Source: Arbacia lixula (lineage: Eukaryota; Echinodermata; Echinoidea; Arbacioida; Arbaciidae). From it: a DNA stretch of 64,000 nt. The number at the start of each line of letters is the position of its first letter. The first letter of the stretch is position 1. This document shows, in pieces, positions 1,660 through 49,100 of the stretch. Position numbers and translations under genes: made by a program. Where the stretch lies: contig OZ022589.1 in NCBI GenBank assembly GCA_963669155.1, positions 10,942,465 to 11,006,464 of the forward strand, in the 5' to 3' direction. The notes below the pieces were generated by a model, which did not search any database, had not been told where the DNA came from, and saw nothing but the letters and a program-made list of their open reading frames with translations.

Positions 1660-4600
1660 GGAGACATTGTGCGGAAGATGAAGGCAGATGGTATCCCTGA
1701 CATTGACATCAAGAGGGCTGTGGTGGAACTCAAGGCTCGGAAGAAAGCATTGGAGGACAAGGTAGGAAGGGGGGGGGGGGGGTAATGTGAGCAGGAGAGG
1801 TGAGGGGAAAGAGGAGGAGGATATGGTAAGGGTGAGGAGGAGGAGAAGGTGAGGGGAATGAGGTGGAGAAGGTTAGGGGAAGGAGGAGACGGTGAGGTGG
1901 AAGATAAGAAGGTGAGGAGGAGGAGGAGAATGTAAGGGGAAGGAGGAGAAAATGAGGGTGAGGAGGTGGAGAAGGTTAGGGGAATGAGGTGGAGAAGGTG
2001 AGGGGAAGGAGGAGACGGTAAGGTGGAGGATAAGAAGGTGAGGAGGAGGAGGAGAATGTAAGGGGAAGGAGGAGAAAATGAGGGTGAGGAGGTGGAGAAG
2101 GTTAGGGGAAGGAGGAGGTGGGGGAGGATGTAAGGGGAAGGAGGTGGAGGAGGAGAAGGTGAGGGTAAGGAAGAGAAGGTGAGGGTTAGGAGGAGAAGGT
2201 GAGGGGAATGAGGTGGAGAAGGTGAGGGGAAGGCGGAGAAGCTGTGGGTGAGGAGGAGAAGGTGAGGGGGGAGGAGAAGTTGAGGGGAGGAGGAGAAGGT
2301 GAGGAGGAGGAGGAGAAGGTGAGGAGAAGGGGTAGAAAATGGTGAGGGGAAGGAGATGAAGGTGAGGTGGAGGAGGAGAATGTGAGGGGAAGGAGGAGAA
2401 AATGGTGAGGAGAAAGGAAAGTGTGAGCAGGTCAGTTAGAGGGAGGAGAAACCAGGAAGAGGAAAAGGGGAAGAAAGAAGTGGATGAAGAAAAAAAGGCA
2501 AATGAATTAAGTCATTCAAATTATAAATAGAAGTTATCTTGGGGATGTGATATTGTTGAGCAAGAAAGTTTACTTTGCAATCGAACAGGAAGTCTGGAAA
2601 GGCCAGAAAGTCTCATTTGCAGAAGAGCTTGGCATGTGACCAGTGGAAATTAGGACAATCCTTTAATTCTTCTGGTGGCACGGTTGCATTTATACACCAG
2701 TAAAACTAATAGGTCCCATAGAAGGAGAACAGCAGGCTCCCGAATTCTAGTGAGGATAAATTATTAAGCACACATAACCTCATGTACTGACTTGAAAATG
2801 CACACAAAAAGCACTGTTTGTCAAAACCTTCATTCCCCTCTAAGGTGATCTATTCCTAATAATATATCTTGTTTATCTGTCCGTGTCTCTGTAGGAACTT
2901 GCCTTGACTTCTAAAGGGCTGAAGTTTGACCGATCAAAAATGGAGGACACCCTGAAGAGGAGATTCTTCTATGACCAGTCGTACGCTATTTATGGAGGTA
3001 AGTTTTGCTTAATGTTACAGTGTATCAGAATGTCCAGTCTGGAATAATTCCTCTGACTGATTAAAGTATGCTTTATATTTGGATGTTGTAAAAAGATTGT
3101 ACTTAATATATTTGCAAATACAGTAAAACTTATGTAAGGGACCTCCTCTACTAATAGACTACCAGCTCATAGAGACCACAGTTTGTGTTTATGCTGAGAT
3201 TGGTTTCTCATTGAAAACTGTATTAAAGTAACCTGCACGTAAAGGCCACCTAAAAAAAGATCACATTTATTGTCTCCTTTGAGTGAACTTAATGTACAGT
3301 TTTCACTGTATTCAATTTGGGAGTATAAATCAAGTTAACATAGTTTCATTAGTGAAGTGAGGGCACTCTGGTATACTATAGTGCTGAGAGATCTTGACTC
3401 TTGCAGAAAGATCCTGGTTTTAAGCCCAGCCCAGTGTGTACTGTACGTCCTTGGACAAGGTGTTTTGCTCATGTTTGTCCCTCTCAACCCAGGTTTTGTA
3501 GACAGGTACCTGGCAGGAATAAAATTTTCCTGATCTTATTAGATCAACTAACTGCTAGACCTGCATACTTGGCGGCTTGGCTAAAGCCGGGTTAATAATC
3601 AAGCACTTTGGGTAATACTTGTACTAGGAAAGCGATACGTAAAAGCTGATTATTATTATTATTAATATTGTTATTCATTTTGTGAATTCTGGAAGGTGTG
3701 AGTGGTCTGTACGACTATGGGCCGACTGGCTGTGCCATGAAGGCCAATCTGATCAACATCTGGAGGAACCACTTCATCATTGAGGAGAGCATGCTGGAGG
3801 TCGACAGCGCCATGCTGGCCCCTGACACCGTCTTCAAGTAGGTTCTGGCTTTGTGGGGTTTTTTTTGTCAGTCCTGAGACTGAATGAGAGAGATGTTACA
3901 ATTATAGCCCTGGGGGGTGTTTCACCAAGTTGTTCTTAAGCTAAGAATGACTTTTCGCACGACTGGTGACACTTTCTTCTGCTAAATCCGATTCTCAATC
4001 TCCCATCAGGTAAGGTTGAAATCTGATCTTTCTTGTAAATTAAAATTCCTGTTGCTAACAAGTGTCTGAATACAATGATTATGGTTTGTCAAATTTGATT
4101 AGGATTTCTTGGAAATTAACTTCTACTAGATCTATAAAAGACAGGAACAAATTCTCATTTAGCACAAGGAAAAAGGAAGGTTTTACCAGCCGTGCGTAAA
4201 GGCGTTCTTAACTTAAGAAAAGCTTGGTGAAACACCCCCCAGATCGCTGGATACAAGAATGTTTCTTGCACACATATGTGCACCACCTCCATTCCCCAGC
4301 GAGTATTTCTTGCGCGCTGAATGAAATTGGCGCTGGGCCAAGATCAATCACATAATTGGCCACCTCCTATTACATACCCATTTATACTCCTGGGTGGAGA
4401 GCAGCAGTGTGGATAAAGTATCTTGGTGAAAGACACAAGTGCCATGGGTGGGCTTGAACCTTGAGATCTTCAGTCACAGCTCACAACCACTATACCATGA
4501 CACCTCCACAAGCCTGTGCTTCATGCAATTTATTAGTTATTTATTTATTTTTTTTTACAAAATGTGATTTTGTGTGAAAAAGGGGTTACACCCCTTTGAT

Positions 4601-7600
4601 TACTGCAAGCCCACTTATATTTTCTGTTCCATTGACTTTGCCACCAGGGCATCTGGGCACGTTGAGCGGTTTGCAGACTTCATGGTGAAAGACGGCAAGA
4701 CTGGGGAGTGCTTCCGAGCTGATCATCTTCTCGCTTGTGAGTTCTCTCATTCATCCATTCATTCATTTATTGATTTATTCATTCATTCATTTATTTATTT
4801 ATTTATTCATTCATTCATTCACGCATTTATTTATTCATTTATCAACACAATCATATATTCATTTATCTATTAATTTATTCATATATTCATTTATTCATTC
4901 TTTCATCTATTTCATCATTATTTTGTTTATTAGTCCGTTCATCCTATCAATCATTCATCAATACATTCATCAATTCATCAAAATTCTCATCATCCATCCA
5001 TTCATTCATTCATTCATTCATTCATCAATTTTTTCATCCTTTTATTCATTTATTCATTCATCTAATCTAATTAAATTGATCAATGATTCAGCACATGTTT
5101 TCATTTGTGCATGTATTCTAATACATACATGTAGGACCATTTTTTGTTAATATACATTTGTAGTGAAATCATTCCATACATTTTTTTCCCCTTTGCTTAT
5201 CGAGCATTTAGTGATAGCTTACTCAATACAGGAGGTCGAAAGCAGTTCTTCAGTGATTTTCTTTTAACATGAATTAGTCAATGATTTCCATTATATGCTG
5301 TATTCTTATTTCTTTCTCTTACTACATATGGTAGCATATCTAGAGAAACTTAGTGCGGACAAGAAGGCGACAGAAGAACAACGGAAGGAGTACCAGATGA
5401 CCATTGCCCAGCTAGACAACTATGGCAAGGCGGAGCTGACAGAACTCTTCAAGAAGTACAAAGTGCTGTCACCAACCACCAACAACGAACTCTCGGACCC
5501 CATGGAGTTCAACCTCATGTTTGCCACCGCCATCGGTCCTTCTGGAAACATGCCCGGGTGAGAAGGAAAGAATGTTAAGAGAGAGATAGGAAGAGAGGGG
5601 GGAAGGGAGGGAGAAAAGAGAGAAAGGGAGAGAGGGAGGGAGGGAGGGAAAGAAAAAGAAAGATAGAGAGGGGGAGAGAAAAGAAATATAGAGAGGGAGA
5701 GAGAGAGGTTCTGGGTAGATATGGTAGCATTTATCAGAAAAATTGACCACATGTACCATACAAGTCATTCTTGAGCTTTGGTCTGCAGCCGTTTTTTAAA
5801 GACATTATTATATTTTTGTCCTTCCCTCTTGCAGCTACCTGCGACCAGAGACTGCCCAGGGTATTTTTGTCAACTTCAAGCGGCTTCTGGAGTTCAACCA
5901 GGGTCGCCTGCCCTTTGCCGCTGCTCAAATTGGCAACGCATTCCGCAACGAGATCTCTCCTAGAGCCGGACTCATCCGAGTAAGGTATGTAATGCACATG
6001 ACTATACGACACTGTGTTTAATGCTATTATGTTTTTGGATTGTCTATCTCTCCACAGATCTATCTCCAGACCATTTATTTCAAGCTTGATACCTGCATGT
6101 CATTCATGGAATCAACAATCTGTAGACTTGGGGTCAAATTTGACTGAAGACAATGATCAAAGGTCAATCATGTGTGCCCAAAATGGCAACAAATGTATTT
6201 TTTCACTATAAGTAGGAATCAATTGATTTATCTAACCAAATGCAGTGCATGTATCAACAAAGAAGGGATTTTTTTTATCACTTTCACAGGGAGTTTACTA
6301 TGTGTGAGATAGAGCACTTCATTGACCCGAGCAACAAGGACCATCATAAGTTTGACACGGTAGCAAATCTGGCCCTCCCTCTGTTCCCTGTTGACCGCCA
6401 GGTGGCCGGACTATCGCCCATCACAATGACCATCGGGGAGGCCGTCGAAAAGGTAAGAGGTCGGGGCCCAGTGGCCATCCCATAGTCCATCTTCATGTGT
6501 GATAAAAGGCAGGGTGTCCCACTTGCAAAAGTCATGAAACTCAGCAGGACTCGTCAGTTTACCAAATGATAACGTGTATGAAATCGTACAGTCATAGCGT
6601 TATGAACATTGTCAGGAAACGGGATGAACTATCCTTGTTTACATTTGAAACGCAGCGAGCATAGTCTACATTCATAATCGTATTGTCCCCGTCAGCACAC
6701 AATGTGGGCATTTCTCCCATTGAACGCATGCACCGTGGAGCAGACCGGTGTGGACCATAGCGCACAGCGGTCTCCCGTCTATCAATGAGAGTCGCCATAT
6801 AAACACTCCTCAAGGGAGTTAAGAAACCAGGGGCCATTTTCATGAAACTTTACTAAGCCTAGTTAGTTACTAAAGTGCATGGAAATGCATGCATTGTGGT
6901 AACCAACTAGGCTAGTAAGCTTTCATGAATATGGCCTCTGGTCTTTATATACAGTTCACTTTGATATATGTTTCATTGAGAAGCAGTTTTCAAGGGAAAC
7001 AAGTGATATGGTGTTGTGTTAACGTAGTGCTGCGTGTCGGGATCAACTATAAAGGGTATAGTTCTGCTTAATTCTGAGTTGAGGAAGGACTAGTGGATTA
7101 GAAGTGCATTACGGGTTGTAGCACATTTAGTACTCAAATAACTCAAATGATGAGTAACTCTCTGTGATAAATCTTTCTATATCTCTCTAATGAATCTGTC
7201 TATGTCTGATTCAAGCTCTCTGACCTCTCTGAATATATACTGTTTCTTTTAAAATATACAAGTGAACAATTAAAGTTAAATTCATAAAGAAGACCAGTTT
7301 CTTGGATGGATGATGTCTCATACATATTCCACAGAAAATGGATGTTAACTACGTCACAGTTCCTGAATTCTAGTAAGTGTCATTCAGGGACTTGCCCCAT
7401 AAAACTTGAGGGTCAGCTTTAACCTTGAGAGCAATTAGGCTTCTGGAAAGTGGTCATAAACGTGGAAACATGATTTGGGCGGGGAAGTGGTTAAAGAACT
7501 TACTCAGTATGTGTATATCACGCAACAATAGGCAGGTGGTCGCAGGGTTCATTGTACTATCATGCTCAATTCCCTCCCTCCCCACGCCCAGGGCTTGATC

Positions 7601-8229
7601 AAGAGCCGCGTGCTGGGCTACTTCATTGGCCGCACCTTCCAGTACCTGACCAAGGTGGGCGTCGACCCAAAGCAACTGCGCTTCCGCCAGCACATGTTCA
7701 ACGAGATGGCCCACTACGCCTGCGACTGCTGGGATGCCGAGACCAAGACCTCATACGTAAGAACTAGTGGGGGGGAAACAAATGTCTCCAGGCGATTTGT
7801 TCAGGGTCTGGTGTCATGAAAGTAACTCATTGATTTTCATATTTTCCCATGAAATGCAGTGTACTGCACTGAGTGTGCAACATCATTTTTTTATTGCACA
7901 CTTTGTTGTACTCCATACACTGCACCAAGAAAGATGCACATCATGTGATGCATTTTGACCAATCACGATGCCTTAAAAAGCATAGGTAATTTTATAGCGA
8001 TTCATTGTCCTTCCCAGGAAATGTTTTTCCCATGGTTGATACACGTATACTTAGATAGTATATTACATACATGTAATATAAACATATATACCTTGCACAG
8101 TCTAGTGTGTTAACATTCCCAAAAGTGGAAATTATTGCTTTTACAGGGACACTTTCATTATTATTATTAGTAGTAGTAGTATTTATTTATTTTTTTACTT
8201 ATTCATTTATTTATTTATCTATTTATGTA

Positions 8230-8321
<92 letters not shown>

Positions 8322-11300
8322 CATTAATCTTCTTCTTATTTTTTTTTTTTTTTTTGGGGGGGGGGGGGGGCTTCTTTCTGCATTATGGGGACTACAATAT
8401 TTTAGCCCCTATAATTCTTTTTTTACTAGTGAGGATAGACAGGCACTATGTCATTGCTTATCGCAGTATATGTACTTCATCTTTCATAACGATGTGATAT
8501 TTGTTGCTGGTCTTATATTCAGGGATGGGTGGAGTGCGTTGGCAATGCAGACAGATCATGCTTTGATCTTGCCCAGCACGCCAAGCACAGCAAGGTCCCC
8601 ATGGTGGCTGAAAAGAGACTACCAGAACCTATATCCTTTGATTCATCTTGCATTCTTGAGTTTTCTTCGAGAGCTGCACCAGGTAGATGTGTTTTATCGA
8701 TGAACATGTCATTCTTGAGCTTAGATTTTACTTCATATGCTTGGGGGAAGCTCATAGTTTAATGAAGGTCCTGTTGTAGCAATTTATTATTGAAGATTAT
8801 TATTATTATTATTCTTAACCCATAATGCTAATGTAGTCTAGTAGTACAGACCCGCTCGAATGATAACATGCCAATTGACTATTTAATACATTTATATCGC
8901 AATAATCGTGTTGCTTCATAGCAAAATAACTACTTTTCCTCTTGAAACATCATAGTTTTTCTATACAAATACAATTATAGGTTATTAAACTTATTCTCTG
9001 CATTATTAGTATAGATATATGAAAATGCATATTTTAAGACTACATATTTATAACACACAGTCAATGAGAGACCACACACAGTTCGCTCCCTCTTTAAAGG
9101 GATAGTCCATCGTGAAATTATTTTGTTTTCAATAAATGGAGACACATGAAAGAAACACATAAGTGAAGGTTTGATGAAAATCCATCAAAGGATAAGAGAA
9201 TTATGATTTGTTAAAATTCTAATTTATGTGCGAGGTGCTCTCCCATATGTTGTCCACAACTTTTTTGCTGTGTGCATTTACTCAAAAAGATAAGCATCCT
9301 TTTACCAGTGAATTTGGTACATCATTAGAAATATGTTATTACATACATACCTGTAGGAAAAAAAATCTTTACATTGTCAAAAGCAGAAAAAGAGCAATTT
9401 ATGGAATTATTTTGTACTCAACACGTGACATCACAAAATTGAAATTTCAAAAGATCCCAACTTTCTTATCCTTTGATGGATTTTGCGTCAAACCTTCACT
9501 ATTATGTTTCTTTCATGTTTCTGCTTTTATTGAAACAAACTTATTTGCAGGGTGAGCTATTCCTTTAAAGGAAAATTATTTAGGAAAGAAGGTTATTCTC
9601 CAGTTCTTTGATGAAGCGTATCCTTGAATGAAGGTTGTGCCTGAGCATGTTTATTATGAGACGTCTATTCCTTGACTGAGTGCTCCTCACAAGACGGTGG
9701 ATGTGGTGGAGGCGGCCCCGGTGAAGAGCGTCTTGGGAAAGGCCTTCAAGAAAGATGCCAAGATGATCATGGAGCACCTGGGTCAGCTAGACTCCTCCCA
9801 GCTGACGGAGCTTGAGGGGACACTGAGCGGGGCCAGGTTAGGAGTAGGGGAACTCCCCTGTCTCTCTTTCACTCTCTTTCTCTCCCTCTCCTATTCTCGC
9901 TCTCTTTATATATCTGTTGCTTGCTCACTCTATCTACACTGTATATCTCTTTCTGTCTCTCTCTTGTCCCTTGTCACATTAGTACTTTCTATCTATCTCT
10001 CTCTATCTCTGTCTCTCTCCCTCTCTTACTCTCGCTCTCTATATACCTCTTTTGCTTGCTCACTCCCTCCGTCTCTTTCTCTCTTTCTCTTGTCTCTCTG
10101 TCTGTCTTATTGGCACTTCCATCTATCTATCTATCTCTATCTCTGTCTTTCTCCCTCTCTTAGTTTTGCTCTATTTATCTTTCTTGCTCACTCACTCATC
10201 TATCTATCTCTGTCTTTGTCTCACTTTCTCTGTCTATCTTTCTGTCTTATTGGGGCTTTTTATGTATCTCTTTCTATCCCTGTCTCCTCATATTCTAGCT
10301 CTTTATCTCTCTTGCTGACTGGCTCTATTTCTCATTCTTTTTTCTCTCTCTCTCGTTCTCTTTTGCTCTCCCTTTCAAATCGCACATTCTGCATGACCAT
10401 TGCACATACTGAAGCAATTCTTTATGGCATCCTCTGAGTGTAGTCATGTGTACGTTACTGTGTGTTGCTCAGCATAGGTTTCAGTGTGGTGTATTAACTG
10501 AATAGGTAACTTCGTGATCACAAAACAATACAATGCTTTCGTAAAAAATCACACTGCCTACTAGTATACTGACAAGAGATGCACTATAGCTAGCTAACGG
10601 CGCATACAGTACTTATGGGCCACCCATATGAAGCGGAGCCTATGTGTGCAGCGCAGGATAGGACTATGCAATAAGCAACATTTTGCAGTGTATAAGTAAA
10701 AACGTCATTGTAAGAAATAAGCTTGATTTAAAAGGACGTGAAATTTACTACGTTTTCAGTAGCTTGAAGGCAACATTCTGCATGCTCATTGTGGAGTGTT
10801 TCTTCTTTGTGACTTGAGATTGAAATGTTGGATGTTATTTCATTGTCCGCAGTGAGGCCGACATAGAGGTGAACGGAAAGACCTTCAAGCTGACCCCTGA
10901 CATGCTCAAGGTCAACAGGTTCCAGAAGACCGTTCATGGTAAGACCTTCCACTCCCTCAAGATTTTGTAACACATTTGGCAAGAAACACATTTGTTTTCC
11001 ACTTAATTTTCAACAAACAAAAATACCTTCTACTTTTTTTTCTGACTTGTTTTCCATTCATTTACAGGATGGAGCACGCTATCCTTACTACTGGGTGTAT
11101 GCCTGCAATTTCTTTGTAAAAATGAAATTACCCCAGAAAGCCCTTTCACTAAAATCTAGCAGAATGGTTCTTACGGTAGACTACTCATGAATATTAATGA
11201 GTTGGATTAAATGAGACTCTTCATTCTTTGTTTCCATGTTGTCGTGTCTTGACCCGTGAACTAGAAATAGCTTATGTGGGTAAGTCGCTGCCCGGGAAAC

Positions 11301-14300
11301 AGTAGATTGGAGGGTCAAATCCCGTCCGGTTCCAAGATTTTTTTCTGACTAGTTTTTCGTTCATTTACAGGATGGAGCATTTGGATGTTTGCCAAAGAGG
11401 TGTGAAATCTTGCAATGATTTGGGTGCCATGTCAGAATGAACAGGCAAAATGTTGAGGGGGGGGGGGGGGGGGAGCGGCTACTATTGCCCCCCTCCCCCC
11501 CCCCCCCCCAGATTAATTAGGATTAGCCCTCTCTGTAAACAGTGAGCCCCATATTAAAAACATGTCAGTTTTTTGTCTATGGGACTGTCTCTGGGTAGGT
11601 TTAGGGAATGCACAGTCAGTACTTCACATTGTGACTGATGAGTAGAACTAATGGATACCATTTATCTTGTTTCGCAGTTGAAGAGTTCACTCCCAGTGTG
11701 ATCGAGCCTTCCTTTGGCATTGGTCGCATCCTCTACACCATACTGGAGCACAACTTCAAAGTCCGGGAGAGCGATGAGCAAAGAACGGTAAGATGCCCTC
11801 CAAATACTAACCGCTCATTTTCGCGCGATATTGATTGATTTTCACAGAGCAAACGCGAATCAAAAACCATCCTGCTTTCTTGAGCAGGCTAGACGCGCAA
11901 GTCTATGAGGGATTCAGGACTTTGTATTATTGGCATTGAAACTCATGCGCGTGTTGCATGCTGTTAAGCATTACACAGCCATTGGCCTTTTTTGTGGCGT
12001 TACCTGTTCATGATAATGCTTTGTTCCGGGCTTTATTGATGATTTTAATGCATAGGATGGATCTTTTTGTAGTGACAAGTATTTCTCGAAAAACGAATAT
12101 GTTGTAGATATACTTCTTTTTTTTTTTACTGTGACAGGGCTTACAGAGCAGTTGTGTTTTTAAAAGATTTTGTATTTGTCTGAAAATGTTGCCATAAATA
12201 GGATTGAAATGTGTTAAATGTGTTACAAAAAATGTATTTTTGTAATGATTCTTGTCATGATCACAATTTTAATTTTTGTGTGCGTCTGTAGTATTTCAGC
12301 CTTCCGCCCATCATCGCTCCCTACAAGTGCTGTGTGCTTCCCCTGAGCAGCAATAAAGAGTTTGACCAACTCGTTCAAGACTTGGGTAAGAAGTCTGCAA
12401 CACCAAAGCTCACGGCCCTCTCATACAAAGTGTTGCCATTGATCTGAAAGTTCAATCCTCTATCTTCTGTGTACAGAGTTATGGTTGATATCAATTGCAA
12501 GTCAAGTAATGATCAATTGCAATTCTTGATACGACACGGTCCTGGACTTATCGTCCAGTTGCTGTAACAAGGATCAATCCTTGCATGTATTTGTCAGAGG
12601 TTAAAGGGAATGTTCTGGAAAGACAAAAAGCCTTAAAACATGGTGATCGTTAGCAATCTTCTTGCCAGTGGTCTTAAATTCATGTATTGTCCATTTTAGA
12701 AACTTACTGAAAGTTATTTGCACTCAAATGATTCACATTTGGAGTAATTTTCAGTAAGTTTCTAAAATGGACAATACATGAATTTAAGACCATTAGCAAG
12801 AAGGCTACTTACGATAACCTTTTGAAGGTTTTCTTTTTGCCTTCCCAGTATAGTATATTCCCTTTAAAGAAAATCCAGTTGATGTCACAAAGATCAATGA
12901 TTATAATCAGATGTAAATTTTCCAGCCATTGGAAAAAGAAATATTATTAGGGATTATTGCAATACTTAATGGTTTATGTGTGAGGTTGGAGGCATACCAG
13001 TAAACTTTCACAGTCAAACTTCTCTAGTTTTGTTTTGCTTACAATAGCTTCCAAATACTGCATCAGTACTAAATATGCATGATATAGTACCATACAGCAC
13101 AAGTATAGTACAGTTGATTGCTTGAATAGTTTTCCTGTCTCTCTCTCCGATCCCATTCGCTTTCCTCCCTCGCAGCAAAGTCCTTGACTGAAGCTAGTGT
13201 CTTGCACAGGGTGTACAGTTGTTTATGATACAGTATCATAAAACACAGATATATTTTAAATTATTTCAACATTCTTTCTGTCTTTCTTTTCCAACCCCAT
13301 CCCTCCGCCCCCTCGCAGCAACGTCCTTGGCTGAAGCGAATGTCTCGCACAAGGTGGACAGTCATTGTATAAAACACAGATATATTGTAGATTATTTTAA
13401 TATTCTTTCTCTCCTTCTGAACCTCATCCCTCCCTCTCCCCACTCGCAGCAAAATCCTTAGCTGAAGCGAGCATCTCGCACAAGGTAGATAGCAGCTCGG
13501 GGTCGATAGGCCGGCGCTATGCTAGGACGGATGAGATCGCTGTGCCATTCTGCGTGACGGTGGACTTTGACTCCTTGAAGGAGCCACACACAGTCACCCT
13601 GAGGGACAGGGACTCGCTGGAACAAGTCAGAGCTCCGGTAAGTACAACCTCCAGGGGTAGTTTGACCTCGTAGGAACCACTTGCATATCTGTCATTTGAT
13701 TGCTAGTTTTTGTCTCAGCTGAACAAAGTTTGGCAGAGACCTAGTAATCACTTTTCTTGTCAGTCTGTTGGTCTGTTACAAAAATGTTAAAAGTTTTTGT
13801 TTAACTTGCTCTGATTTCTTTATTTCTGCATCAATTGTGATCACACTTGGTACAAATGATCCTTGGATAATACCACATGTGTCGCCATGAGAATGATGGG
13901 GTCAAAGGTCATTTAGGGGTCAAAAGGTCAAATGATATGAGGCCATGTGCATCATTTTTCTCAAAGTTTTCGTTTGACTAGCTCTCATTTTTTTATTTCT
14001 GCATCAATTGTGATCACACTTGGTACAAATGATCCTTGAGTAATACCACATGTGTCTTCATGAGGTTGATGGGGTCAAAGGTGATCTCGGCACTAGTTTA
14101 AATATTTGAAAAAAAAATAGCACTGTTTATTAATTGCGAAATCAGGCGAGACACGTGGTTCTTGAACTACCTTGTTTTGTACAGGGCCCCTTATATTCAA
14201 GGGATAGTCCACCCTGAAATTAAGTTGGTTTTAATCAAAGCAGAATTATGAAAGAAACACTGGAGTGAATGTTTGATGAAAATCTGTCAAAGGATAATAA

Positions 14301-16054
14301 AGTTATGATAATTTGAAATGTCAATTTTGTGACATGTTTTAGGTGCTCTCACATATGTTGTGTATTGTATGATTCCATAAATTGCTGTGTTTTTATGAAG
14401 GAATGATTTTTTTTCCAGAGGTTTGTGTGTAAAAACGTGTTTCTAATGATACTCCAAAGCTTGTTGTTACCGGAGGTATAAGAAGTATAAGTAAGGAAGT
14501 ATAAGAACTTATTGGAACAAGTCAGAACACCATTGGGTTAAACTTAAAGGGGTAGTTTGACCTCATGGGAAGTAATAATTTAAGTAGGAAAATTAGAAAA
14601 AAATAATTTAGTTCGAGAAAAATCTGAAGAGTTCATTTGTAATAAGGAAGCCATGGATGTATTTAAGGTTGACTACTCCTGAAATTGTCAACATGTCATA
14701 TGTAAGCAACAAACATAGGGATCTTTTATGGCCTTGTATGCCAACCACCTTTTCCTCAAGTACACATACCAAACACAGGTGAAAAATTTTGGTTGCCTAA
14801 AATATTACTTTCCATGTCATACTTGGCACTTAATACTTATTAAAAAACAATAATGCACTGCTGTTTTTTCCCTTTTTGTCTCGCCCACCCACCGGAGGTG
14901 AAGGCGAGACTAAGGGATCCAAATGGCGTCCGTCCGTCGTCCGTCCGTCGTCCGTCGTCCGTCACAAATGTTAAAGTTTACCTGCAAGACTCTCTTATGA
15001 TCCATAACTTGGCAACTGTTACAGCAATGGCAGCCACACTTAGTTGATAGAAGCACTAGGGGTATCTTCATGTTATTGTGCTGTAAGAGGTCACATGATA
15101 AGGTCAAAGGTCATTTGAGGTCATACATTAAAGTTTACTTGCAAGACTCTTGGTGAAGGCTTCCTAACTTGTGCACAGAATTGTGTGAGCATGTGTGAGC
15201 ATTACTGATGTAGATTTAGGCAAACATTACTCATGCACATTTATGCAAATTTATTCAAAGTCACTATTTTGCACCTGATTTTGATGTTGTCTGTTTAAAG
15301 TTGCTTATTTGTTTGCTTCAGTTTTTCACAGTTTTATTCCATCTCAAAAAAGGGGGAAGGTGGGGGAGGGGGAGTAGATAGAGGAAGTAGCATTGCGTGA
15401 AATAGCCCTTCTCATTTACAGGTTATCAAGTCTCCAAAAAAATTATTCTACTTTGTTCACTTTACATGCATGCCTTATTACAATCATAATGTTCAGCATT
15501 ATTCATGTCTGTTGACAAACTTTCTTATATAAACGTATCAATTTTAGAAACTTTATTCCATGTTCAGTTTTCAACTGCAGCACTAATTTTAACCTTTTTA
15601 CATTTCTATGCCCCCCAGAGACAAAGTTTACTTCGCCTCTATTGTGCAACTGATTATCATCCTGTTTTGTCTTTGTCTATTCTAATGGAACTTGGTGGAG
15701 GCTTTTTATTCCATCTCAAAGAAGGGGGAAGGTGGGGGAGGGGGAGTAGATAGAGGAAGTAGCATTGCGTGAAATAGCCCTTCTCATTTATGGAATGTTA
15801 CATTCTATGGCAGATATTTCACAATCAGCCAGGGATACAATTCTTTTGCGTAGCAACGGAGATCGCGATATTTCTGGTTATTTTCGCAAGTGGGCGAGAC
15901 ACAATATTGCTAATGCCTTGTTTTCTGTTCTTTTCTTTCTAAATAGGTGTCAGACGTGACTGCCGTGATCCGTGACCTGTCCAGCGACAAGATCCAATGG
16001 GCGGACGTCCTGAACAAGTACCCCAAGTTTGCCGGCCAGGAGAAGGAGCAATGA
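1660..16054 (+). CDS. GARS1: Glycyl-tRNA synthetase (class II), 5' end outside window
   Basis: Joins glycine to tRNA-Gly in the cytosol and, in animals, usually also in mitochondria. Exons: 1660-1761, 2895-2997, 3696-3837, 4648-4736, 5335-5557, 5835-5984, 6290-6452, 7592-7756, 8523-8630, 9691-9836, 10853-10938, 11678-11787, 12292-12385, 13450-13637, 15947-16054. They sum to 1977 nt and stay in frame: 658 residues plus TGA. Residues 1-45 are the WHEP domain ([20 protein letters not shown]). The catalytic core follows, with [27 protein letters not shown], motif 2 ([15 protein letters not shown], about 256-270) and motif 3 ([11 protein letters not shown], about 502-512). The anticodon-binding domain is about 530-658. 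The missing N-terminus should hold the start and any mitochondrial targeting peptide. The family is usually about 685 residues in the cytosolic form. All introns are GT-AG except 8631-9690, which is AT-AC. The match to human GARS1 as I remember it runs the whole length, so the call is secure. Confidence 0.97.
1765..2440. repeat. Polypurine minisatellite in GARS1 intron
   Basis: About 675 bases of almost pure purine on the + strand, built from irregular units such as GGAGAAGGTGAGGGGAA. It begins right at the donor of the WHEP exon with a run of G. Longer units recur, for example GAGGTGGAGAAGGTTAGGGG and GGAGGAGGAGAATGTAAGGG. It is probably variable in length between individuals. Confidence 0.85.
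3370..3660 (+). mobile_element. tRNA-derived SINE with ATT tail
   Basis: The head has tRNA-like A- and B-box character (CTGGTTTTAAGCCCAGCCC as a degraded B box). The body contains CCTTGGACAAGGTGTTTTGC, TGTCCCTCTCAACCCAGG and GTACCTGGCAGGAATAAAA. The 3' end has TAATAATCAAGCACTTTG and GAAAGCGATACGTAAAAGCTG followed by (ATT)n. The layout is that of a tRNA-SINE with a microsatellite tail. The element ends about 35 bases before the acceptor of the exon at 3696. Confidence 0.75.
3911..4242. mobile_element. MITE family C, copy 1
   Basis: GGGGGGTGTTTCACCAAGTTG at the left end is mirrored at the right end by GCTTGGTGAAACACCCCCC. The inner arms read CTTAAGCTAAGAATGAC and GTTCTTAACTTAAGAA. It is longer than the two other copies (23.05 and 32.97 kb) because of unique sequence in the middle. 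It lies in the GARS1 intron after 3837. Confidence 0.8.
4255..4505 (-). mobile_element. tRNA-derived SINE, reverse orientation
   Basis: On the - strand the head reads GGTGTCATGGTATAGTGGTT (A-box type), then AAGGTTCAAGCCCACCCATG (B-box type), then GTGTCTTTCACCAAGATACT and a CCACCCAGGAGTATAAATGG body. This is the usual arrangement of a tRNA-derived SINE. It lies directly against the MITE ending at 4242, so the intron between 3837 and 4648 is mostly mobile DNA. Confidence 0.75.
4742..5060. repeat. ATTC/ATTT tetranucleotide tract
   Basis: About 320 bases of (TTCA)n and (TTTA)n units with interruptions, starting 5 bases after the donor at 4736. The overlapping ORFs rich in I, H, S and F are products of this repeat. 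Confidence 0.9.
5560..5710. repeat. GA-rich polypurine tract in GARS1 intron
   Basis: About 150 bases of GAGAGAGGGAGG-type units immediately after the donor at 5557. Simple repeat; the antisense S/L/P-rich ORFs in it are artefacts. Confidence 0.85.
6828..6941. mobile_element. Small palindromic element, family H copy 1
   Basis: CCAGGGGCCATTTTCATGAAA at the left and TTTCATGAATATGGCCTCTGG at the right form inverted arms. Inside them TTACTAAGCCTAGTTAG pairs with CTAACTAGGC-like sequence. About 114 bp. Related copies are at 20853-20966 and 32251-32363. Confidence 0.75.
8231..8370. repeat. (ATT)n microsatellite followed by T and G homopolymers
   Basis: About 29 ATT units run to about 8321, followed by a TCTTCTTCTT stretch, a run of T to 8355 and a run of about 15 G to 8370. 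It is in the GARS1 intron before the exon at 8523. The L- and I-rich ORFs here are repeat products. Confidence 0.95.
8631..9690 (+). other. U12-type AT-AC intron of GARS1
   Basis: The 5' end reads ATATCCTTT, the classic U12 donor of the AT-AC subtype. The 3' end reads CTCCTCAC, so the intron ends in AC. A perfect U12 branch-site motif TTCCTTGAC lies at 9668-9676, with its adenosine at 9675, 15 bases from the intron end. Using these ends joins ..RLPEP to KTVDVV.., which matches the human protein EPKTVNVV as I remember it and keeps the frame. No GT donor near 8630 gives that junction; the GT at 8683-8684 would add about 18 unrelated residues and break the frame. The intron contains a MITE (9094-9568). 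Confidence 0.93.
9094..9568. mobile_element. TTAA-type MITE, family E1 copy 2
   Basis: It has TTAA at both edges (9094-9097 and 9565-9568). The ends AGGGATAGTCCATCGTGAAAT and GGGTGAGCTATTCCT are inverted versions. Inside, CATGAAAGAAACACATAAGTG on the left is mirrored by CTATTATGTTTCTTTCATG on the right. It is about 475 bp, noncoding, and sits inside the U12 intron. It resembles 1178-1635; a partial third relative begins near 14199. Confidence 0.75.
9860..10375. repeat. Long imperfect CT-rich tract in GARS1 intron
   Basis: More than 500 bases of CTCTCT, TATCTATC and CTTGCTCACTC units, nearly all pyrimidine on the + strand. It starts about 20 bases after the donor at 9836. Several blocks recur with a period of roughly 150-170 bases (CTCTCTTACTCTCGCTC, TTTGCTTGCTCACTC, TGTCTTATTGGCACTT). 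ORFs rich in S and L here are artefacts. Confidence 0.9.
11258..11345 (+). mobile_element. tRNA-like fragment (degraded SINE head)
   Basis: ATAGCTTATGTGGGTAAGTC resembles a tRNA A-box arm and GAGGGTCAAATCCCGTCCGG resembles a B-box arm. They are spaced as in a tRNA (about 40 bases apart), with a GCTGCCCGGGAAACAGTAG anticodon-arm-like block between. The acceptor stem does not pair convincingly, so I read it as the head of an old tRNA-derived SINE, not a working tRNA gene. Confidence 0.55.
11457..11510. repeat. G tract facing a C tract
   Basis: About 17 G (11457-11473), a 14-base spacer, then about 22 bases of nearly pure C. The two runs can pair as a hairpin, or the G run could form a quadruplex. 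It lies in the intron before the exon at 11678. Confidence 0.85.
12601..12867. mobile_element. TTAA-type MITE, family E2 copy 1
   Basis: TTAA occurs at both edges (12601-12604, 12864-12867). The outer arms AGGGAATGTTCTGGAAAGAC and CTTCCCAGTATAGTATATTCCCT are inverted copies. The inner arms form a near-perfect palindrome: TAAATTCATGTATTGTCCAT pairs with ATGGACAATACATGAATTTA. Noncoding; a second copy is at 16641-16874. Confidence 0.82.
13130..13500 (+). repeat. Three tandem copies of a GARS1 intron-exon junction
   Basis: The acceptor plus about 45 bases of the exon beginning at 13450 occurs twice more just upstream, with acceptor AG at 13174-13175 and 13317-13318 (spacings 143 and 131). All three have a pyrimidine-rich stretch, CTCGCAG, then a version of the codons for [11 protein letters not shown]. 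Copies 1 and 2 lose similarity soon after and lack the rest of the exon. Only the third continues into the conserved [16 protein letters not shown]. The intervening TAAAACACAGATATATT is also repeated. See findings. Confidence 0.88.
13660..14160. repeat. Diverged repeat with GGTCAAAGGTCA motifs
   Basis: Two internal blocks of about 170 bases share TCATTTTTTTATTTCTGCATC-type sequence, TTGTGATCACACTTGGTAC, AAATGATCCTTG and AATACCACATGTGTC. Between them lies GGGGTCAAAGGTCATTTAGG. The right end AGGCGAGACACGTGG resembles the right end of the element at 14876-15903, so this is probably an older relative. Confidence 0.6.
14199..14570. mobile_element. Partial TTAA-type MITE, related to family E1
   Basis: AAGGGATAGTCCACCCTGAAAT, then AAGCAGAATTATGAAAGAAACAC and a TGTTTGATGAAAATCTGTCAAAGG block, match the left halves of 1178-1635 and 9094-9568. 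No clean right end was found. TTAAAGGGGTAGTTTGACCTC at about 14550 may be a separate element end, since the same word occurs at about 13655. Treated as a fragment. Confidence 0.5.
14876..15903. mobile_element. 1.0-kb nonautonomous element with TGTCTCGCCCAC ends
   Basis: The left end TTGTCTCGCCCACCCACCGG and the right end AAGTGGGCGAGACAC are inverted over about 12 bases. The left part has a GTCCGTCCGTC tract and AGGTCAAAGGTCATTTGAGG. It contains an internal direct duplication of about 87 bp (15332-15418 and 15704-15790), almost identical, including GGGGGAAGGTGGGGGAGGGG and GAAGTAGCATTGCGTGAAAT. It ends 43 bases before the last GARS1 exon. No coding capacity seen. Confidence 0.65.
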
Positions 16055-23701: not shown

Positions 23702-26700
23702 CTACAAAAAGAAGTCTAAAGACATATCCAGAATGTCACTGTCAATCTCAGGGCTGCTGGCTTGTACTCTCACATTTCTCCTGCCTTCCCTGGCTTGATC
23801 GACCTCTGCACACTGTCTTGCTTTTGCCTTGACCGGTGTCCGGTTTGCCTTTGCCTTGACCGGCGGTGACTGGTCCGTCTTTCTGCTCTGGGAGGTCCGC
23901 CGCTTTGACAGAGAGAGGCGACGGGGTTTGGCGCTCCTGCGTTTGCATGAGGACGGTGGCGTCTGGGTGCATTGGTCGAGTACCGCTCTCCTGGTTGTAC
24001 CGCCCGGGATCGGGCTGATGACAAGTTCATCGTCATCCTCGTCCTCGTCGAGCACGCTGTCGTCGTCGTGGAACTCGTAGATGCGCAGTAACGCTTCGTG
24101 GGGGATGCTGAGGTTGAGGGCAAGCAAAGACCGGGGCACTCGCTTCCTGCAGCAGTGCCGCCGCACCGCCGATGGCTGCAGGATGTGGAGAGAGAAGTGA
24201 GGTTTCTTAAACGTAAAGAAGGTCGGTGACAGCCCCGCTTTGAGCTCATTCAGGAACGTCAGAAAGTGCGAGGTCTTGTTCGGAGAGTGCGAAAGGGAGC
24301 GGGATCGCTTGCGAGGCGACGAGATGTTGATCCGCTTGACTTTGCCTCTCATGAAGAGGGACTTTCTGGATGAGGACGACTTAAGTCCAAATGGGAGCAG
24401 GTCGCTCCTGTGGCTGGGGCGGATGGGGGAGGATTGCACATCACGATGACCTAAACATGGCAGAGATAGGTGACGCTGCCTGAAACGCTTTCTCTTCACA
24501 CGATGCTTCACTGGGGAAAATATGCTCCCTTTCTGGACGGGGCTTGAAAACTTAGGGAAGACCACTTCAGATTCAGAGTCATCGTGCACATAATTATTCA
24601 CAATCTCTTTCTGTTCTTCCAATGGTGTTCCTGGAGGCAAGACAATGTGCGGGACTCTTGGACTTCTACTGGGGCTGTTCATCAGATTCCGTTTGACCCG
24701 CTTTGGAGTGCTTACCATCAAACTATCTGTGTTTTTAGCTGGAGAATTCAAAAGTTGGTTCGTTGAAAGTTCTCTCAAGGCATGTTTGGGTGACCCAGCA
24801 GTACCCTGTTTCTCCACAATAGCAACTTGTTTCCTTGAATCAGACACGCCCATATTTCTTCGCTTCTTGGCAGGGGAGGAGCACATCCTTGAGTAAGAAA
24901 TGTCAGACCGTGGAGTTGATCGTGTCACTGGACGCATTTCGGGCAAGTTGATTCTGGTGCTACGCCGTCTTGTGGAAGACCTGGCCTCACCTTTCAAATC
25001 CTCAGCATTATTGGACAGTCCATTTTCACCGAACACAGGCACATTCTCATCATCGGACAGCTGCTCCACACCAAAATCTTCCACCGGTGGACACAGGAGG
25101 TTCAGACTGTCCTTGACAGTGCCGAAGACAGTCTTGTGAAAGTTGGGTGACGGGAGCGTGCTGAGTTCTGACTCTCTCCGTTTCTTAATCTCCAGCTGTG
25201 TGTCCAGCTTCCTCATGAAGCCGGAGACCTGCTCCTCCCACTCAGAGCCCTCCGAGGGGAAGTCGTCCACCTTCTGGAGAACCAGGCCGATGGTAAACTC
25301 CCCGAAGCTCCCCGTCGAGCTCTGGTCATCGTCATTGTTTACATTGTTGTCAGGGACGGGGTCAGAGGACGGCAGGCAGTACACACTGAGTGCTGCTTTC
25401 TCCAGATCCTCCTGACACAGCAGCCGTGATCGTTCCGCAGTCTCGTTGATCTCCTCCTGCGAGAATCCAAGGAAACTGGACTCCTCTACTCCAAGGTCAC
25501 TCCTGAATACCAGCTCTAAGGATTGCTGCTCCTGCACCTTCAGGCTGCTCTCTCCATCTTTATGAAGCTCTGTCGGCTCTGGAACAACCCTTTCATTCCT
25601 ACTGCTTTCAACAGTCTCATTTCTAGCATTTGCTGCACCTAAAGGGACTATACTATCATTTCCAGGTTCTGCATTCAGCATAGGTGTTGTATTTTCTGTA
25701 TTACTTGGAGGACCTCCACTAACATGATCATCCTCTTGCTGCTGTTGGTTCACAGAGGAAGACTTAAGTGGAACCTGTTTCGCACTGGACCTCTTTTTCC
25801 TGCTCCGAGGATGGGCCAGCTGAAAATCCGATTCAGAGTTGTTCCCCTCTGTGGCTACATCCTGAGAAGAACTGACCTTACTTCTAGAGGACACTCTACG
25901 TTTGGTACCCACTGAGTCCTCGTGGTTTTCACTTTCGTTGTTCGCATCGGTAGCACCATTCCCTCTCTTTGATGAATCTTTGGCCGAGGCGGATGCAGGG
26001 GTCTTCTGCGGCTGGAAGTCGTCACTTGATGGGTTGTCTGGTGTCGATGGCACCCGAGGCTGTGGATCCCTGATACGGGGACTACCACCCATCTGAGGGG
26101 CTTCCTGTTGAGCACTGCTATTGTCCACAGCCACGCTGCTGCCCCTCACTTTACGGGGTGGCGCTTCTCCGTGGCTTCTCCGAGACTTCCTTTTGTGGCG
26201 AAACAAATTCCTACCACTTGCGCTGCCTCTCGTACACAATGACTTCCCCACAGCTCCTTCAAGATGTATGGGATCGCCAGTGAATACATCATCATCTTCC
26301 ATCGCTTCAAGACTCACCCTCTGCTTCTTACTCTTTCTCCCCAGTTGCTGAACCTCTGGGCTGCTGACCACCTCAGATCCACGCTTGCCCGGTCTGTCAT
26401 GCCCATCTATACCACTCTCTTGTGCCACATTTGCTGCAGTAACACCGGCAGTCTCCAGATTTACCCTTTCAGTAAGTCCTGCATCATTTTGGAGAACATC
26501 CCCAGATGGTGGCAGACTATCTACCAGTACTGGGGGAGTTGTCTCAGGAGGGCACGTGTCCCCTGCTAAGTCTTCCCTTCGCACCCGTGTAATCATGACC
26601 TCTTCACCACAACCCTCCTGCGTGATGAGCTCCCCTTCACCTGCAATTCCCCTCAGAATCACCCCCTCATGTTGAGGCTCCTGTCCATCTCTCCCACCCA

Positions 26701-29700
26701 CATCGTCTCGCCTTACAGCCTCGGAGGATTTAGGCACATTCCTTGAATCTACAACTTTTGGGGAGAGACTCTTCCTTCCTCCGCTCCTCCTTTTCTTGCC
26801 CTTCGTTCTTGACCGCACTCCATCCGTCGGACTGCTCTGCTTGGAAGGACCAGCTGAAATGTCTGGTGAGGCAAGACCAGCATGGCTCTCACCATTCACC
26901 AAGACATCATCACCACCACCTAGTCTTTCTGCCAGCCCATGAATCCTCACTTCTCCTGCTTCTTCCACATGACTGGCCCTTCCTCCATCATCTTCACCAT
27001 TTTGAGGCCTCTCGGAGCTTTTCCGATGACCTTTTCGCCTCCTTGAATCCTTCAAGCTAGTGTCCTCTGGTGCAGCTGCCGTCTCAAGACTCCTGGCAAA
27101 ACTTCGCTTCCTGGATGGACTCATAGTCATTCCTTTCTTTACGGCTTTCTTTGCTCGCCGAATTGATAAGGGTGTTGTGGGCTCTGTCAGCAGAACGACG
27201 GCATCTTCATTGTCAGAATGCTCCGAGCTGCAAGAATACAAAACAGACACAACAGGTAATTGTTAATCACTGCCCTAAGAGAATAATCACAAAAAAATAT
27301 TAAATGTTGATACCAAGCTTAAATCATTTTCATTTTAGATGATTTTCACAACAGGACATAAAATGAAGGTCGCGTGAATAGATGAGCGACACTCTACTGT
27401 GCACGGTAACAGACCTCACTTCAGTTCTGATTAAGAGCAGGGTGAAAACCCAGTGGAGTTGACAGATAGCCTATACTGGAAAAGTGATGCTGACCCCTCG
27501 TGGTTCACCCCAGAAGGATGTTCAGCCAATAAACAGACAAAGAATAAGTCATTGAAAGGTGTGCCATGATTGCCCGTCTGTGTTGTAGTTTTAGTTGCCC
27601 AAAAGGAGATTTGCATTATATTTAACATTTTGATATAACAAATTGTTGACTATATTGTCTATTATCTCAGCTGGTCATCATTTTTTATGCCTCCGCCATG
27701 AAGTGGCCGGAGGCATTATGTTTTCGGGTTGTCCGTCCGTCCGTCCGTCCGTCCGTCCGTCCGTAAGTCCGTCCGTCCGTCCATCCCGAATCCGTTTAGG
27801 CAATATCTTGAGAACCGTAAAGCAGATTTGCTTCAAACTTGGTACATGTATGTATTGCATGAAACTAATGAAGTGTGTAAAATTGGGGTCAAATCTGATT
27901 GAGGTCAAAGGTCAAAGGTCAATGAACTTTGTAAAAATTGCCCAAAATTGACCTTTTTCACAATAAATCCAAATCCAAGGATGCAATTCTCATTAAACAT
28001 GGTGCAAAGATGGATCACTACTTGGGAATTGACTGGTGACATTTTTGGTAAAATACCTGAAAGGTCAGAGGTCAAAGGCCAATGAAATTTGTGAAAAATT
28101 GCCAAAAATTGACCTTTTTCACAATAAATCCAAATCCAAGGAGGCAATTCTCATTAAACATGGTGCAAAGATAGATCACTACTTGGGAATAGACTGGTGA
28201 CTTATTTGGTAAAATTCCTGAAAGTTCAGAGGTCAAAGGTCGATGAACTTTGCCAAACTTGGTTAGAAATTGCCCCAAACTTAAAGTTTTCACAATAAAT
28301 CCAAATCCAATGGTGCAATTACAACCAAATATAGTGAAACGATGGATCACTACTTGGGGGTAGACTGGGGTCATTGTTGGTGAAATTGCTGGAAGTTCAG
28401 GTCAAAGGTCAATGAACTTTGCAAAAATTGATATTTTTCACAATAAACCCAAATCCAAATCCAATGGCGCAATTATAACCAAACATGGTACAGAGATGTA
28501 TCACTTCATGGAGGTAGACTGGTGAAAGTTTGGGTAAAACTCCTGAGAGTTCAAAGGTCAAAGGTTAATGACCTTTGCCAAAAATTAGCTAAAAATTGCC
28601 CCCAAAGTGATAATTTTTAAAATATATCCAAATCCAATGGTGCAACACCAACCAGATGGATCACTGCTTGGGGGTAGACTGATGATATTTTTGGTAAAAT
28701 TTCTCAAAGGTCAGAGATCAAAGGTCAATGAACTTTTTCAAAATTGGCTAAAAATTGCCCCCAAATAGATATTTTTCACATTGAATCCAATACTAATGAT
28801 TCAATTCAAACCAAGCATAGTACAGAGATTTATCACATCATGGAGGTAGACTGGTGAAGTTTGGGTAAAATTCCTGAAAGGTCAAAGGTCAATGAACTTC
28901 ACCCAAAATTGGATAATTTTAAACAAACTTGATACAAGGATGGATTTAGACAGACTGGTTAGATTGGAAGTCAAAGAAGTAAGAGGTCAAAAATCAATGA
29001 ACATTGCCAAACTTGGCTAAACTTGGAAAAACAGAATGTGATATTTTCATTTCACATAGGAGCAGTGGTAGATTGCCCACCAAACAAACATATTTTCTGA
29101 GAATAGCAAAGAGGCGGAGGCGTATTTATCGACTGCGCGGCAGTCGAATTGCTCTACTTTTTATGTATTTTTGTTTTGTGTGTGTGTTTTGTGTTTGTAT
29201 AAGTTCTTCTTTGATGTATTTCTAAAGTATGTATTTTGATGTAATTTGTGTACATTGGTTCTTCTTACTGCCGGTCATTTGTACTATAGACTGTATATTT
29301 AATGTGTATTAAACCTTATGTTAAAGGATATCACACTTCACAAGCCATCAGCTTTCTGGTGATACCATGAATTCATTGATCATGAAAATTATTTATTTTG
29401 TTTGTTAACTTAATAAAGAACTAAAAAAATTAAAGTCAATGACTCACTCTTCCTGCAGGCTGCTGGACAGGCTGGTGGTGGGTGGGTCTATGTTGCGGAA
29501 GCGCACACAGTCCTCCAGGAACTTCACCAAGTTGGGACCCTCAGCAATCATGGAGTCCAGGTGGCTGTAGCTGTTCTTCTCCCCGACCAACTGCCGGTGC
29601 TGCTCTGTTTGTAGATGCTGCAAAAGTTTGGAGAGAGTGAATTGCCAGTGAGACTTCATATTGGATGGCTATATTGATTGTTGATAGGGTGATGAAGGAA

Positions 29701-44775: not shown

Positions 44776-45086
44776 AAAAAAAAACTTCATTAAAATCAGG
44801 ACTAGATATGACACAAGGTAGACATCAGTGTCAGTTTACATGACTTTTCATTGTCACTTTGGTGATAGAAAAAATATGTTTTCCAAAGGTTTTCATTACA
44901 GTGGTTTTCAAAGAATGGGCCTAGCAGTTGGTTTCAACCTAATAGTAGTCTTATCCCAACACATATTTGCCCCAGATTCAAGTCATGAACACAGACATGT
45001 GTTGTTGTTCTTAAGTTTCCCAGTTATTTTTTAAAAATATTTATTGGTTGGATTTGTTGGATCTGAAGCTACTGTAACACCAAGAA

Positions 45087-45590
45087 GTGAAGTTTGACTC
45101 TCTAGAGTTTTTCACCAAGAAATTCCCTTGTTTGTTGGGTGATGGTGATGTTGATCAAGACAGTCTTGAGAGTGAATTTGCTCACTACCAAGCAGACACC
45201 TCCACGGATACCATTGCTACTGAGACAACAAGAGTGGATGAGAAGTGGCATAAGATTTCGCAACTCACAGATCCTTGCACTGGTGCTAAGATGTACCCCT
45301 CTTTGACTAAAGTAATGAAGGGAATCTTGGTCATCCCTCATTCCAATGCATCATGTGAGCGGGCATTCAGTGTTGTACGGAAGAATCACACCGAATTTCG
45401 TCCAAATTTGAGTGTCAAAACCCTGGAAGCACTCTTGATTGAAAAACTAGCTCATAGCACCCCCTGCTTTCAGAGGGAATGCAACAAGGACATAGTCAGC
45501 AGGGCTAAAAAAGTCACACAGAGTTTCCCCGTGTTCAGGACACCGAAGTTACTCTGCACATATTATCACACAAGTGGAAACATTCAATAG
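45087..45590 (+). pseudogene. hAT-like transposase C-terminal (dimerisation) fragment
   Basis: The 167-residue ORF contains YPSLTKVMKGILVIPHSNAS, then CERAFSVVRKNHTEFRP and LSVKTLEALLIEKL. This is the C-terminal dimerisation region of hAT transposases, in which the S.N..ER.FS pattern is diagnostic. The N-terminal BED finger and the catalytic core were not found upstream, so this is a remnant. Confidence 0.78.
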
Positions 45591-46089
45591 GATCGTGGAG
45601 GTCATAAGTGGTAATCCAGTCCATTTGAAAAGATAAGAGATCTTCACAGCTGATTGGGCATCAAATGGCACATTTCTAGGGCCTGATTGGTTCTTTCGCA
45701 TAGTCAGTGCAGCAGGAGATTATGCTTACATGTATGTTGTAAAGAGCACTAGACAGATATGGATACGTAAAAGAAGGTGCCTGAAACAGCATGCTGTAAA
45801 CGCAGAAACAAAGCAAATGGAAAAAAAAAACAAATCCATCATGGACACCTGCTTGTTTTCCGTTTGAATTGAAAGTTTGAACTAGGGAAAGTAGGAGTCG
45901 CTGTATGAAGAATAGGTTGGTTATCTTTGACTTGCAAGTAATTCAAGTACACATTTGTACCCATTTATGTGGTTGTTTACCTTATCAAACTTTCAAATTC
46001 ATATTTAAATAAACTTTTCCAGATATATCTGAGTTCAAATGTGGAGTGTACAATGGTGTAGCTCACACTGGTGTTCAAACTATGAAATG

Positions 46090-46182
46090 TATTTTTCATG
46101 TTTGTATCATATTTTACTATGTATGTAAATGTTTTTTATGTTGATGGAAATGAATAAAGTTCAATCAATCAATCAATCAATC
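46090..46182 (+). mobile_element. LINE-like 3' tail
   Basis: TTGATGGAAATGAATAAAGTTC is followed by (AATC)n (ATCAATCAATCAATCAATC). AATAAA with a short-unit tail at the 3' end is typical of non-LTR retrotransposons. It may be the far end of the LINE whose 5' half lies at 40.9-42.5 kb, with DNA transposons in between, or a separate 5'-truncated insertion. Confidence 0.5.
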
Positions 46183-49100
46183 ATCAGCTGTGAAGGATAA
46201 ATTAAAGGATGAGCTTGATATGCTTGAAAAGATGGATGTACTAGTAACTAGAGCAATTCGACTGCCCCGCAGTCGATAAATATGCCTCCGCCTCTTTGCT
46301 ATTCTCAGAAAATGTGCATGTTTGGTGGGCAATGTACCATTGCTCCTATGTGAAATGAAAATATCGCATTCTGTTTTTTCAAGTTTAGCCAAGTTTGGCA
46401 ATGTTCATTGACTTTTGACCTCTTACTTCTTTGACTTCCAATCTAACCAGTCTGTCTAAATCCATCCTTGTATCAAGTTTGTTTAAAATTAGCCAATTTT
46501 GGGTGAAGTTCATTGACCTTTGACCTTTCAGGAATTTTACCCAAACTTCACCAGTCTACCGCCATGAAATGATTCATCTCTGTACTATCTTTGGTTTGAA
46601 TTGAATCATTAGTATTGGATTCCATGTGAAAAATATCTATTTGGGGGCAATTTTTAGCCAATTTTGGCAAAGTTCATTCACCTTGGATCCCTGACCTTTG
46701 AGAAATTTCACCAAAAATGTCATCAGTCTAGTAGTGATCCATCTTTGCACCATGTTTGGTTGGTATTGCTCCATTGGATTTGGATATATTTTGAAAATTA
46801 TCACTTTGGGGGCAATTTTTAGCTAATTTTTGGCAAAGTTCATTGACCTTTGAACTCTCAGGAGTTTTACCCAAACTTTCACCAGTCTACCTCCATGAAG
46901 TGATACATCTCTGTATCATATTTGGTTAGAATTGTGCCATTGGATTTGGATTTAGGTTTATTGTGAAAAATATCAATTTTGCAAAGTTCATTGACCTTTG
47001 ACCTCTGACCTTCCAGCAATTTCACCAACAATGTCACCAGTCTATCCCCAAGTAGCAATCTATCTTTGTACCATGTTTAATGAGAATTGCATCCTTGGAT
47101 TTGGATTTATTGTGAAAAAAGGTCAATCTTTGGCCAATTTTCACAAATTTCATTGACCTTTGACCTCTGACCTTTCAGGAATGTTACTAAAAATGTCACC
47201 AGTCTATCCCCAAGTAGTGATACATCTTTGTACCATGTTTAATGAGAATTGCATCATTGGATTTAGATTAATTGCGGAAAAGGTCATTTTTGGGCAATTT
47301 TTACAAAGTTCATTACCCTTCGACCTTTGACCTCAATCAGATTTGACCCCAATTTTATACACTTCATTAGTTATATGCAATACATACATGTACCAAGTTT
47401 GAAGCAAATCTGCTTAACGGTTCTCAAGATATTGCCTAAACGGATTCGGGACGGACGGACGGACGGACGGACGGACGGACGGACAACCCGAAAACATAAT
47501 GCCTCCGGCCACTTCGTGGCGGAGGCATAAAAATCACAGAACCTACTGATTGGGTGTACACACTAGTAGTAGAAGAGAAGCCAAATGGCAAAGTTAGGGT
47601 GTGCATTGATCCGCAGCATGTGAACAAAGCCCTAAAAAAGGGTTCATTACCTCCTCCCAACAATTGAAGATGTGTTGCCACAATTGAGTAATGTCAAGGT
47701 TTTTAGTAAGGCAGACTGCAGCAAAGGTTTTCTTCAGTGTGTGCTAGATGAGGAATCGCCCATGTTGACGACAGTACAAACACTATGGGGATGCATGAGA
47801 TGGAAGCGAATGCCCTTTGGTATCAGTCCAGCTCCAGAGCTGTTTCATCAGAAACTTGAAGGACTAGAGGGTGCTGTCTACGCTGGAAGACGCGAACGCG
47901 AACCATGACGCGAGTGGGATCAATCGGAAGTCGCCGATGGCGTGTTATGTCGTCGATGGGAATCGGACGACGGGAAGACCATCCGAAAGCAAATAATTAT
48001 GCCAGAAAAGCTCCATAAGGATGCTATGCGAGATGTGCATTATGGCCCTTTAGGTGCACACCTTGGGCTGAGAAAAACACTGGCGAAAATGAAACTTTGG
48101 TTCTACTGTAGATGCACATTCTTTTCTTAGGACATGTGACATGTGTGCGAAAAGGAAGTCTCCTCTGAGGCAACGACAGGCGCCACTACAACAGAGTAGG
48201 GTGGGTGTCCCAATGGAAAGAATCGCGCAGGATTTGATGGAACCATTGCCGAAGACAGAGTCAGGCAACAGATGGATTCTGGTGGTAGGGGATTACCACA
48301 CAAAATGGGTCGAGGCCTATGCATTGCCTGATGCAAGGGCCGAGACTGTGGCAAGGAAATTTGTTGAGGAATTCATCAGCCGCTTCGGTGTACCAAATAA
48401 AATCCATTCCGATCAGGGTTCAAATTTTGAATCACACTTGTTTGCTGAAGTGTGTGTACTGCTCAGAGTGACCAAAACGAGAATTACTCCTTACAATCCA
48501 AAATCAGATGGCAAATATGCTCATGCTTGGCCGAGAGACAAAACTGCCGGTTGACCTCACAACACAAACCATAGAGGATAAAGAGTTAGACAATGAGGAC
48601 TATGCCTAGAAATTAAGAACCAAGATCAAAAAAGCTCATCAAAGAGCTCAGGCATGTACAGGAAAAGTTGCCGTCCATCAGAAACGAAACAACAGGAAAG
48701 CACGATCTCATGGATTGCGAAAAGGAATGTTCGTCTGGATGCGTGATCCGTCTTAACAAAAGGGCCTCTCACCCAAACTCCAACTACACTGGAAAGGACC
48801 ATTCCTGATAATTACTGAATTATCAGATGTTATTTTCCGACTTCAAGCAAGCCCCCGTTCAAAACCCATAGTTGTACATGCAGATCGACTAAAACCCTAT
48901 GAAGGGGAGGAGGTACACAAGTGGACTTGGGAACCACCATAAACAGTGAAAGATGTTACTCATACTCAAGAATTGCTTCTTGATCAAATCAGTGATGATG
49001 TGGAAGAAACAAATCAAGCTGCTGAATAAGATTCTGAATTGTCGCAAGATGAGGTGGCTGGACAAAATGATAACTCGATGGTCATACAACCACATGCTAG

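Follow-up and report, generated by a model that had tools for sequence, protein, structure and literature searches.

The 64-kb window, that is, the whole stretch of 64,000 nucleotides that was analyzed, contains a gene for glycine-tRNA ligase (GARS) that could be traced from 2895 to 16054 (+). It comprises an exon at 2895-2997, read by eye, followed by 13 exons from 3696 to the stop codon at 16054, whose positions were set by eye and then verified by translation (the AG before 3696 ends at 3695). Translation revealed the last exon (15947-16054, +), which fell outside the 556-residue query used against the PDB; searched alone against Pfam, it gave no match. Further along the gene, in 13160-13500 (+), there is a 131-bp tandem repeat (1.9 copies at 13238-13486 according to TRF, with a further copy seen by eye near 13175) that duplicates the 3′ splice site of the GARS exon at 13450 along with ~35 bases from the start of that exon, and its copies upstream of 13450 are possible decoy acceptors.

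The exon boundaries that matter here were defined by translation and protein match. The upstream exon (8523-8630, +) ends in phase 0 with the residues AEKRLPEP, and the downstream exon (9691-9836, +) begins with KTVDVV. A 556-aa piece obtained by joining 12 of the GARS exons matched PDB chains of glycine-tRNA ligase, which we take to be human, over residues 2-555 (best E 9.4e-254), and the 8630/9691 join, in phase 0, was gap-free at the junction against the PDB chain VAEKPLKEPKTVNVV. Judged by protein homology only, therefore, the intron sits at a real exon-exon junction.

The intron delimited in this way, on the basis of motifs, reading frame and an enumeration of splice pairs described below, spans 1060 bp (8631-9690, +). 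Scoring relied on the customary consensus strings for the minor donor, the minor branch site (in the degenerate form TTCCTTRAC) and the major class. The intron opens at 8631-8639 (+) with ATATCCTTT, which agrees with the minor-class 5′ splice site at 9/9 consensus positions, and carries at 9668-9676 (+) the branch-point motif TTCCTTGAC, again with 9/9 positions matched and with the branch A at 9675. Its 3′ terminus at 9690 reads ...CTCCTCAC, the final AC occupying 9689-9690 (+), as read from the sequence, so that 15 nt separate the branch A from the intron end. The initial annotation had claimed this donor at the intron start, a perfect branch motif 15 bases from the end and an AC terminus, and each of them was found exactly. 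A passage of PMC2831892 quotes ATATCCTT and TCCTTAAC, together with an AC end, for U12-type AT-AC introns; the GARS intron has a 5′ site that fits ATATCCTT(T), a TCCTTRAC-like motif near its 3′ end and AC as its last dinucleotide. Also within the intron, at 9618-9626 (+) and 41 bases before the branch motif, lies GTATCCTTG, which matches the minor-class donor at 8/9 positions and is probably a chance decoy donor.

Taken alone, neither motif is rare: the window holds two matches to the minor donor motif (0.91 expected in 64 kb) and two to the branch motif (0.66 expected). Chance was modeled with 200 first-order Markov simulations of the 64-kb window, both strands being counted together. Simulated windows contained, on average, 0.095 perfect donors with a perfect branch motif at most 5 kb downstream, and 0.055 when an AC 5-17 nt past the branch motif was also required, while the window itself contains two perfect donor/branch pairs within 5 kb, one on each strand. 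Moreover, the chance of finding the donor 9-mer at any one fixed position is ~8e-6 and, since the donor position of the GARS intron is fixed by protein homology, the placement of its motifs goes beyond chance. The gene itself provided an internal control, in which 12 introns were scored (the one between 2997 and 3696 was left out). The intron at 8631-9690 showed 9/9 matches to the minor donor, 2/6 to the major donor and 9/9 to the branch consensus. The other 11 are all GT-AG, with 2-5/9 minor-donor matches, 4-6/6 major-donor matches and best branch matches of 5-7/9 and, from these features, look major-type.

The intron also houses a 479-bp inverted-repeat, MITE-like element (9092-9570, +), whose arms (9092-9230 and 9432-9570) are 139 nt long each and 81% complementary. 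Two relatives are present in the window, at 1177-1636 and 14196-14458, and the likeness among them (69-82% over the aligned pieces) suggests an old family. The long arms and the two related copies fit the description of MITEs as inverted repeats occurring in several copies. The ends of the element, read by eye, are TTTAAA-like, with no clear target-site duplication settled from them, and the stop-to-stop frames over it reach up to 110 aa (9223-9555). Its 3′ end, at 9570, is placed 97 bases before the branch motif. The initial annotation had a MITE inserted into the intron without disturbing its signals; it is real as an inverted-repeat element, donor and branch motif are both intact, and the insertion is presumably particular to the source lineage.

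Considering these data together, we conclude that 8631-9690 is very probably (roughly 0.96) a U12-type AT-AC intron of GARS, which would be removed by the minor spliceosome and into which an inverted-repeat element would have inserted. The motifs, their spacing, the frame and the protein match are direct observations; the splicing of the transcript at 8630/9691 and the intervention of the minor spliceosome are predicted from them. Following the pairing steps generally accepted for this machinery, U11 and then U6atac would pair with AUAUCCUUU, whereas U12 would pair with UUCCUUGAC, leaving the A as the branch point, and CCT would be joined to AAG to yield ...EP-KTV.... The element would have landed between the splice signals, leaving both intact. 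The assignment to the minor (U12) class of AT-AC introns in GARS1 made in the initial annotation thus appears sound, in that the defining sequence features are present and the protein is matched through the junction. Among the features that point against it are phase 0, given as the disfavored phase among U12 introns in a passage of PMC7367187, and the branch distance of 15 nt, slightly above the optimum of 11-13 nt quoted in a passage of PMC3584512.

Among the alternatives, the least improbable is that this is a U2-type AT-AC intron, excised by the major spliceosome. Such introns have a precedent in the 85 “major AT-AC introns or related subtypes” mentioned for human cells in a passage of PMC8280824. 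However, the GARS donor fits the major consensus at 2/6 positions as against 9/9 for the minor one, and a perfect branch motif lies close to the intron end, all of which makes removal by the major spliceosome very unlikely.

Another possibility is that the true intron uses a nearby GT-AG pair, the AT-AC signals being unused or the product of chance. All splice pairs combining a donor from 8560-8799 with an acceptor from 9600-9759 were enumerated, and those that remained in frame, introduced no stop and retained the downstream VKSVLGK amounted to 10 GT-AG, 15 GC-AG and 16 AT-AC pairs. There are thus ten in-frame GT-AG pairs within range, for instance 8660/9680, a pair that would place extra residues between EP and KTV, and a good-looking GT donor exists at 8683 (CAG|GTAGAT), though outside the in-frame pairs. 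However, the donor context at 8660 is poor (tga|GTTTTC), and none of the 10 enumerated GT-AG pairs produced EP|KTV, since every one of them either deletes residues that the PDB chains contain or inserts residues that they lack. The use of a GT-AG pair is, hence, slightly less credible still. The contention that only a non-GT-AG intron restores the conserved EP-KTV junction in phase 0 agrees with both this enumeration and the gap-free PDB alignment. The identical mRNA can be obtained only from 8631-9690 (AT-AC) or from its one-base slide, 8632-9691 (TA-CA), as A stands at both 8631 and 9691, whereas 8630 and 9690 carry different bases, as do 8632 and 9692. This slide was counted against the AT-AC assignment; to our knowledge, TA-CA introns form no known class. 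In practice, a gene finder limited to GT-AG introns would mis-model GARS at 8631-9690.

One feature of the U12-type intron is odd, and it concerns the likeness between its donor and the inserted element. The arms of the element contain TTATCCTTTGAT, which resembles the minor donor. Across the window, TATCCTTTGAT is confined to the donor (8632-8642, +) and the two arms (9467-9477, +, and 9194-9184, −). When the donor 20-mer was compared with the element, 16/20 positions matched, while six other NTATCCTTT 20-mers located outside the elements gave 11-13 matches. A likeness of 16/20 was reached by 2/2000 simulated elements and by 0/1944 random 20-mers from the window (1944 of 2000 were kept, those within or close to the three copies of the element being excluded). 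This likeness is most likely a coincidence. That the 5′ end of the U12-type intron derives from the inverted-repeat family, so that its minor donor would be recent and transposon-made, is favored by the 16/20 match, rare among simulated elements and random 20-mers, and by the restriction of TATCCTTTGAT to the donor and the two arms, but the functional motif itself accounts for 8 of the 16 matches, the likeness spans only ~20 bases, the comparison was picked after the likeness had been noticed and the mammalian GARS U12 intron, if at the same position, indicates an old origin, which makes this the least probable of the alternatives. It is compatible with the U12-type reading, from which it departs only regarding the age of the intron. 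It is also conceivable, but very doubtful, that a transposon family with TTATCCTTTGAY in its arms, one base away from a perfect minor donor, scatters near-ready minor 5′ sites, and that an exact 11-nt complement of the real donor, present in the copy inside this intron, could mask it and slow splicing. When the RNA of 8601-9720 was folded, the donor had no partner inside the element with a pairing probability above 0.3, whereas exon bases 9695-9704 did exceed that value; masking of the donor by the element, therefore, receives no support from this fold.

The window contains a second perfect minor-class intron, in this case GT-AG, of 532 bp on the opposite strand (33953-33422, −). Its donor is GTATCCTTT and its branch motif TTCCTTGAC, whose branch A lies 18 nt before the intron end. 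The joined flanking exons maintain the open frame NYGSTDVLTNARRLRLPIKHLD|VLVKFLTREKAKLKLSGNDK and had no match in Pfam. Two candidate exons on the same strand (30351-30201 and 29617-29509, −) encode a DBF zinc finger (PF07535, E 2.7e-15), which suggests that the gene holding this intron is probably DBF4; the literature search combining “U12-type intron” and “DBF4” yielded, in the texts it covered, nothing linking the two. An open frame of 1186 aa at 23702-27262 (−), without matches in Pfam or the PDB at E up to 1, is perhaps a large last exon of this DBF4-like gene. Elsewhere, open frames at 45078-48554 (+) resemble, by eye and from their translations, the end of a hAT-type transposase and the reverse transcriptase and integrase of a retroelement. 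An Rfam search over the 64-kb window at the gathering threshold produced no matches.

As for known systems, mouse Gars is one of five U12-intron genes taken from the U12 database in a passage of PMC3695530, and abnormal processing of U12 introns in RNPC3 patients is described as striking for HARS and GARS (HARS1/GARS1) in a passage of PMC7612377. Set against this, four minor-intron papers, which are not gene lists, make no mention of GARS in their main text. The intron at 8631-9690 thus belongs to the same class, and lies in the same gene, as the mammalian GARS/GARS1 U12-type intron reported in those passages (PMC3695530, PMC7612377). The match is known at the gene level, and the two introns would be orthologous. 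The protein and the structure of the gene suggest an animal source and, with mouse and human as precedents, a conserved minor intron of GARS in a further animal would be no surprise. With U12-type AT-AC introns in general, a subtype representing 24% of minor introns according to a passage of PMC8280824, it shares the donor, the AC end, the branch motif and a short branch distance, and it differs from U12 introns at large in its disfavored phase 0. At one position of the branch motif, where the passage of PMC2831892 quotes A, the GARS intron has G (TCCTTGAC for TCCTTAAC); a passage of PMC7367187 shows the TCCTTGAC core in a U12-type intron of soybean. Since both the intron class and its presence in GARS are already in print, this intron is ordinary; its value is practical only and it opens no new question. 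The GARS case contributes one further genome in which a housekeeping tRNA-synthetase gene carries a minor intron.
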